From NCBI GenBank assembly GCA_946481355.1, contig CAMLNH010000156.1:1-6763 (forward strand): a stretch of 6,763 nt of DNA, given 5' to 3'. The DNA comes from an uncultured Curvibacter sp. Lineage in GTDB: Bacteria; Pseudomonadota; Gammaproteobacteria; Burkholderiales; Burkholderiaceae. The notes beneath the pieces are model-generated. The model was not told where the DNA came from, did not search any database, and saw nothing but the letters and a program-made list of their open reading frames with translations. Of the stretch, positions 634-735 are shown piece after piece. Numbering within the stretch: position 1 is the first letter of the stretch; the number at the start of each line of letters is the position of its first letter. A program made the translations under genes and the position numbers.

Positions 634-735
634 ATGTTTGCCGCCCGCCCGTTCCCTCTGAACACCGCCTCTGCCGCCCCGGCAGGCGTGGCCGCGCGCG
701 CAACGATCACCAAAACCACGACCATTAAGGGCTGA
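634..735 (+). CDS. Putative Thr/Ile/Lys-rich leader peptide upstream of asd (33 aa)
   Basis: A 33-codon frame from ATG 634 to TGA 733-735, ending 91 bases before asd. The first 23 residues are Ala/Pro/Arg-rich and unremarkable. The last ten are [10 protein letters not shown]: five Thr (ACG ACC ACC ACG ACC), two Ile and two Lys. Known attenuator peptides, such as ThrL of enteric bacteria, load codons of the pathway product in this way. Thr, Ile and Lys are all made from the product of the next gene, Asd. No Shine-Dalgarno lies before ATG 634, and the TACAAT box at 621-626 suggests a leaderless start. A perfect 6-bp hairpin inside the frame (671-676 with 680-685, loop CCC) could pause polymerase. 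The in-frame ATG at 625 overlaps the -10 box and is less likely. I infer a regulatory rather than structural role; I do not recognise a named family, and chance composition cannot be excluded. Confidence 0.55.

Follow-up and report, generated by a model that had tools for sequence, protein, structure and literature searches.

The asd gene in the window, the 6,763-nucleotide stretch of uncultured Curvibacter sp. DNA analysed here, is preceded by a short leader open reading frame (ORF) that is probably part of a translational attenuator, in which the position of the ribosome on a run of Thr, Ile and Lys codons would set asd expression. Thr, Ile and Lys are three end products made from aspartate semialdehyde. 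Comparison with related genomes supports the leader and its link to asd well: the sensor codons are conserved, the distance from the leader stop to a switchable hairpin is nearly constant, and asd comes next in all loci read. These features were taken from the sequences themselves. They support, as a prediction, what a sequence-only reading of the window had proposed, namely that the leader codons control asd expression. Judging from RNA folding, it looks likely that the output is translational, by burial of the asd start, instead of transcription termination.

Re-reading the sequence reproduced the leader as first described, i.e. a 33-codon frame that ends in ten codons for five Thr, two Ile, two Lys and one Gly and stops 91 bases before the asd ATG, with a terminator-like hairpin (578-599) and a -10-like box (TACAAT, 621-626) in front of it. 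The layout of the window is as follows.

3 to 551, + strand: leuB (3-isopropylmalate dehydrogenase), with its 5' end outside the window; best family TIGR00169, the fragment scoring below its cut-off.
578 to 604, + strand: terminator-like hairpin and T run 3' of leuB (stem 578-599, tail TTTTATTGGC).
621 to 626, + strand: -10-like box TACAAT, read from the sequence, 7 bases 5' of the leader ATG.
634 to 735, + strand: leader ORF of 33 codons, predicted to be leaderless (ATG at 634, stop TGA at 733-735).
703 to 732, + strand: sensor codons (5 Thr, 2 Ile, 2 Lys, 1 Gly), from frame comparison across relatives.
739 to 782, + strand: hairpin P1 (anti-sequestor), in which mainly 741-751 and 770-780 pair; this is the predicted ON fold, from folding and compensatory pairs.
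745 to 760, + strand: anti-Shine-Dalgarno strand of the predicted OFF structure, from folding; it includes part of the P1 5' arm.
762 to 780, + strand: alternative hairpin inside the OFF structure (762-767 with 775-780, 768 with 773), from the fold with the first 9 post-stop bases masked.
783 to 804, + strand: P2, a variable A+U-rich hairpin (783-789 with 798-804), from folding.
814 to 821, + strand: Shine-Dalgarno GAAAGG and the following GC of asd, read from the sequence.
827 to 1966, + strand: asd, aspartate-semialdehyde dehydrogenase (TIGR01745).

The leuB gene of the window has an ordinary C-terminus without a Thr/Ile/Lys tail, and the hairpin at 578-604 may separate the leader-asd unit from it. 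The GAAAGG of asd presumably fits the anti-Shine-Dalgarno of betaproteobacterial 16S rRNA. The leader peptide matched no Pfam or NCBIfam model up to an E-value of 1, and no Rfam family matched the window at the gathering score or the segment 550-850 up to an E-value of 10.

In the proposed mechanism, RNA polymerase would start near 634, so that the 5' end of the mRNA would lie at the leader ATG or a few bases from it. With Thr, Ile and Lys plentiful, the ribosome at the stop codon would cover about 9-10 further bases and block P1; the strand 745-760 would then pair with the Shine-Dalgarno and ATG of asd, turning asd translation off. With one of the three amino acids in short supply, the ribosome would stall on the sensor codons, leaving the region behind the stop free. 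P1 would then form first, because both of its arms are transcribed before the asd start, and the asd start would be open. We infer the transcript start, the stalling, the ribosome footprint and the direction of control.

In order to follow the element through relatives, we fetched the 80 best named loci by Asd similarity. Among these, 11 (L001, L004-L011, L015 and L016) have a free leader before asd, as in the window; they include Hylemonella, Limnohabitans and Tibeticola, and one of them (L015) is titled Alphaproteobacteria bacterium (MAG). In two others, Curvibacter sp. PAE-UM (L002) and a Burkholderiales MAG (L003), the element is the tail of LeuB, a form we call fused. Loss of the run or frameshifts in close relatives would have counted against the sequence-only reading; neither occurs in the 11 loci nearest by Asd (L001-L011), which comprise nine free leaders and two LeuB tails, the contig of L004 ending before the leader ATG. 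The element is absent from the next three loci by Asd similarity, all of them Polynucleobacter.

A model built from the 11 named free-leader loci and the window (R1) matched 255 of 399 genomes of L001's family at E ≤ 0.01, in one place each, with 8 candidates scored per genome. We read 130 of these loci, 30 that were returned and 100 chosen from the listed places, a set biased towards strong matches, and asd was the next gene after the element in every one of these 130 high-scoring loci. A second sample consisted of 40 genomes with a weak R1 match (20) or none (20); asd was present in 39, and we read 30 loci. The element was present in 24 of the 30, as a LeuB tail in 23 and as a free leader in one (L270), and missing in six (L242, L244, L246, L249, L262 and L263). 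A broader model (R2) of 59 sequences, most of which come from the same genomes as it was run on, matched 302 of the 399 family genomes at E ≤ 0.001, again in one place each. Run on 399 genomes of the order, R2 gave 12 matches, all of them already in the family sample, i.e. with these filters the element was found in this family only. A direct search for the Thr/Ile/Lys pattern with up to three mismatches matched 171 of 399 genomes, but its reversed control also matched often, and we kept it for codon variants only. Full-text searches of an open-access library brought up no description of the element.

For the comparison of codons and structure we used a nonredundant set of 101 elements (6-mer overlap under 0.5), 77 free, including the window, and 24 fused; L023 and six loci with a much longer gap to asd (L103, L104, L105, L210, L215 and L232) were left out. 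The last ten codons contain on average 7.94 Thr, Ile and Lys codons in the free leaders and 7.33 in the fused ones; the two alternative reading frames give means of 0.17 and about 1.05 (0.17 and 1.06 for the free leaders). The last codon is GGC in 88 of the 101 elements, AGC in 11 and GAC in 2. Hence the leader is a short upstream ORF rich in codons for the products of the pathway, as is characteristic of ribosome-mediated attenuators. The expectation that the run would be conserved with synonymous changes was borne out clearly in the free type, where synonymous changes make up 100 of 213 single-base codon differences from the consensus, against 59.9 expected, and weakly in the fused type (22 of 58 against 17.6, n = 24), because Thr, Ile and Lys interchange.

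This interchange speaks for a run that senses tRNAs rather than one that preserves an exact peptide. If the leader were a regulated arrest peptide or a functional small protein, its residues would matter and not the tRNAs of its codons. Such an explanation could account for the well-kept end K-T-T-T-I-K-G and for the MFAARPF-like N-terminus of many free leaders. However, the order of Thr, Ile and Lys varies among leaders while their total stays near 8 of 10, and the fused type has LeuB sequence instead of the N-terminal part; we regard this explanation as very improbable. It is hardly credible that there is no regulation at all and that the run is due to chance or is a structural by-product of a conserved RNA. 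Near the window, strong conservation extends to the nucleotides ACCACGACCATTAAGGGCTGA themselves, but other genomes encode the same residues with other codons and in other orders, and the ATG and the box are kept in the free leaders. A different Thr/Ile/Lys leader (...TAKISTIKTIKTIIG-stop) was seen about 78 bases before asd in Parvibium lacunae (L023), with its own hairpin-like stretch behind it; it may be a diverged form of the element or a similar solution that arose independently.

A search 5-10 bases 5' of an in-frame ATG found a TANNNT box in 74 of the 77 nonredundant free leaders, at distances of 6-10 bases, and in 49 it reads TACAAT; applied to the two alternative frames of these stretches, the search succeeded once in 154. 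The three leaders that failed are L004, whose contig ends, L202 and L229. The peptides of the 74 boxed leaders are 28-42 residues long, with 33 residues in 32 of them. As the -10-like box sits right before the leader ATG, we predict from the sequence that free leaders are translated from leaderless or nearly leaderless mRNA. Many free leaders share an N-terminus like MFAARPFxLN (634-666 in the window), well away from the sensor codons, and leaderless initiation is perhaps the reason for it. Of the 126 free loci whose sequence reaches far enough, 41 show no LeuB signature upstream: the leader travels with asd.

Behind the stop codon comes P1. The CGTC core of its 5' arm, from which the distance was taken by an unbounded search, lies 10-15 bases past the stop in 94 of 101 elements (74 of 77 free and 20 of 24 fused). 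P1 is the sole helix found by RNAalifold in an alignment of 59 sequences, in which 94.9% of the P1 cells are paired (93.5 in shuffled alignments). Eight cells are changed on both sides, a number reached by none of 500 shuffles; three pairs are changed on both sides, which 27 of 500 shuffles reached, and the number of pair types was reached by 407 of 500. Folded from the stop, P1 formed in 65% of the 101 sequences. Two complementarities were also seen by eye. The window Thr codons CACGACC (717-723) are complementary to the P1 5' arm GGTTCGTCGTG (744-754), and GGTTCGTCGCG stands at this arm in some of the free types whose Thr codons differ; the Thr codons and the arm could possibly form a 1:2 pause hairpin. 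In the fused loci L245, L252, L253, L248, L257 and L259, the loop of P1 contains a strand (e.g. GGACCCC, ACAAACCC) whose complement lies 3' of P1 (GGGGTCC, GGGTTTGT); the two perhaps form a further helix.

P2 is a different matter. Across the family, its region shows no significant structure (mean z of -0.30 relative to shuffles), and in the window it is present in both the ON and the OFF fold. This bears on the explanation in which the leader governs termination at P2, or at another intrinsic terminator before asd, in the manner of the thr operon in E. coli. In the stretch from P1 to the Shine-Dalgarno, TTTT occurs in 54% and TTTTTT in 16% of 99 sequences, and in several loci (e.g. L212 and L267) the P2 hairpin is followed by T. 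However, a terminator-like site was found in only 14 of the 99 sequences and is thus not conserved, the T run is absent in some lineages (L193, L216, L221, L226 and L233), the window has no such site between leader and asd (only the hairpin 578-599), and its P2 belongs to both folds. A transcription terminator as the switch is therefore disfavoured, and we consider transcription attenuation unlikely.

The preferred reading, sequestration of the asd start, was examined by folding, from which the two RNA states and their dependence on post-stop masking are predicted. In the window, once P1 is blocked, the predicted OFF helix pairs 745-754 with 823-832 and 756-760 with 817-821, hiding the asd ATG and part of its Shine-Dalgarno. 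Across the 101 elements, at least three pairs between the anti-Shine-Dalgarno strand and the asd start region were present in 37% when the RNA was free from the stop; with 9 post-stop bases masked, P1 was lost and this pairing appeared in 91% (about 90% with 9 or more masked). Thus mutually exclusive structures, as ribosome position would set them, were obtained in silico, by masking behind the stop. The energy needed to open the asd start region rose from 5.7 kcal/mol with P1 formed to 8.9 kcal/mol with 10 bases masked; the change exceeded 1 kcal in 70 of 100 sequences and was below -1 in 5, L265 having given no P1. The native segment gave a higher opening cost than its shuffled version in 72 of 100 (p = 2.5e-7, a value that ignores relatedness). 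The P1 segment of another genome was nearly as good (8.16 against 8.85 kcal/mol for the native one), with the native value higher in 63 of 100 (p = 0.011, likewise ignoring relatedness).

We also tested the sequestering helix by an alignment-free permutation, which replaced a count over columns because the pairing strand shifts by two bases between types. Native pairing between the anti-Shine-Dalgarno strand and the asd start was stronger than that with a swapped partner in 76 of 101 elements, and against permuted partners it gave z of 4.0, 3.7 and 3.4 with the set thinned to 101, 59 and 31 sequences. A control window 5' of the Shine-Dalgarno exceeded its permutations too, by about 2.1, 2.4 and 0.7 standard deviations, and hence part of the pairing signal is relatedness. 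The mean unpaired probability of the Shine-Dalgarno hexamer changed little, from 0.505 to 0.453 with 12 bases masked; accessibility fell by more than 0.2 in 15 of 101 and rose in 4. With its RNA freed precisely from the stop on, the window itself has the OFF fold as its minimum, and P1 is preferred with 12 or 30 more leader bases; the ON state may therefore need co-transcriptional trapping of P1.

The RNA between the leader stop and asd is C-rich, and Rho-linked leaders are known in other systems. Untranslated RNA behind the stop could thus expose a Rho site unless the position of the ribosome prevents it. Such control by Rho alone would leave the conserved P1, its distance from the stop and the link between the anti-Shine-Dalgarno strand and the Shine-Dalgarno unexplained, and we find it quite improbable.

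Apart from the free leaders, the translational attenuator appears to exist in the fused form introduced above. In 34 unique loci, the codon run forms the C-terminal end of LeuB (e.g. ...REMGDAVVAAITTTTKTIKG) and is followed by the same hairpin. Where leuB encodes NPLATI, the sequence TACAAT occurs in 33 of the 34 fused loci, the exception being L251, in none of 82 readable free loci (of 129; 81 if the doubtful analogue L023 is not counted), and in 1 of 69 loci without the element (L246), in a comparison made without L024, L058 and L071, which have no usable stop. In 28 fused loci, GCT accounts for 125 of 1189 Ala codons of leuB and ACA for 39 of 438 Thr codons, even with the site itself counted, and thus GCT-ACA at this place is not expected from codon use. 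All 28 fused loci tested have an ATG in the LeuB frame 13 bases 3' of the box, 59-71 codons before the stop.

The evidence for a promoter embedded in leuB is this one striking sequence correlation, which is best read as a promoter that would give a short mRNA with the end of leuB as its first ORF. It is rather likely, in our judgement, that in part of the family the tail of a working LeuB enzyme doubles as the amino acid sensor of asd. A promoter hidden in leuB codons would then make the last 59-71 codons, in frame, act as the leader; the Thr/Ile/Lys tail would serve for asd regulation only, and the free and embedded forms would have been interconverted several times. On a tree of Asd the free and fused types are intermixed, and its well supported branches force at least six changes of the fused label; the tree was made quickly, from 104 of 138 thinned rows, L126 is wrongly labelled 'none' in it (it is identical to L087, which was dropped as a duplicate), and exchange of asd between lineages would mix the labels too. 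In L246, leuB retains the internal TACAAT and a short tail, NKSKG, there is no hairpin, and asd begins 3 bases after the leuB stop; this looks like a decayed element. On the same tree, the Asd proteins near that of the window (L001, L002, L004, L005, L007-L010 and L016) cluster with those of Rhodocyclales and Polynucleobacter and stand apart from many Asd proteins of the family. The leader is present in both groups, and asd may have been exchanged behind it.

The element resembles several known systems in part. The thr operon leader of E. coli and its relatives (ThrL; Thr_leader in Rfam, RF00506) is likewise a peptide rich in end-product codons before an aspartate-family gene. In contrast to it, the asd element precedes asd alone and not thrABC, contains Lys codons too, has no conserved terminator, is predicted to use a leaderless ORF and start-site sequestration, and does not match the RF00506 covariance model. 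In trp-type attenuators, the leader stop lies a few bases before segment 2, and a ribosome standing there keeps the 2:3 hairpin from forming. The arrangement of stop and hairpin is the same here, with the asd start region as the competing partner instead of a terminator; the prediction amounts to a trp-type attenuator in which the asd start site has taken the terminator's place. In translational attenuators of the erm and cat type, a Shine-Dalgarno is opened or hidden depending on where the ribosome stands on a leader ORF, and the signal is an antibiotic; the asd element would set Shine-Dalgarno access in the same way, with amino acid supply as the predicted signal. The LEU element before leuA in Actinobacteria combines a leader peptide ORF with an RNA structure involving the Shine-Dalgarno; the strand that pairs with the Shine-Dalgarno there is the run of Leu codons, in a structure with a pseudoknot (PMC1262725). 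In the window, the predicted partner is not the codon run but the strand 756-760, past the leader stop.

If this reading is true, the element is a family-wide attenuator of the branch-point enzyme for Lys, Thr, Ile and Met synthesis, which would read three end products at once, act on translation and use a leaderless ORF. The LeuB-embedded form would mean that sensor codons have been built into the tail of an unrelated enzyme, and enzyme tails are a place where leader peptides are not usually sought. It would also constitute a natural experiment on the origin or absorption of leader peptides.
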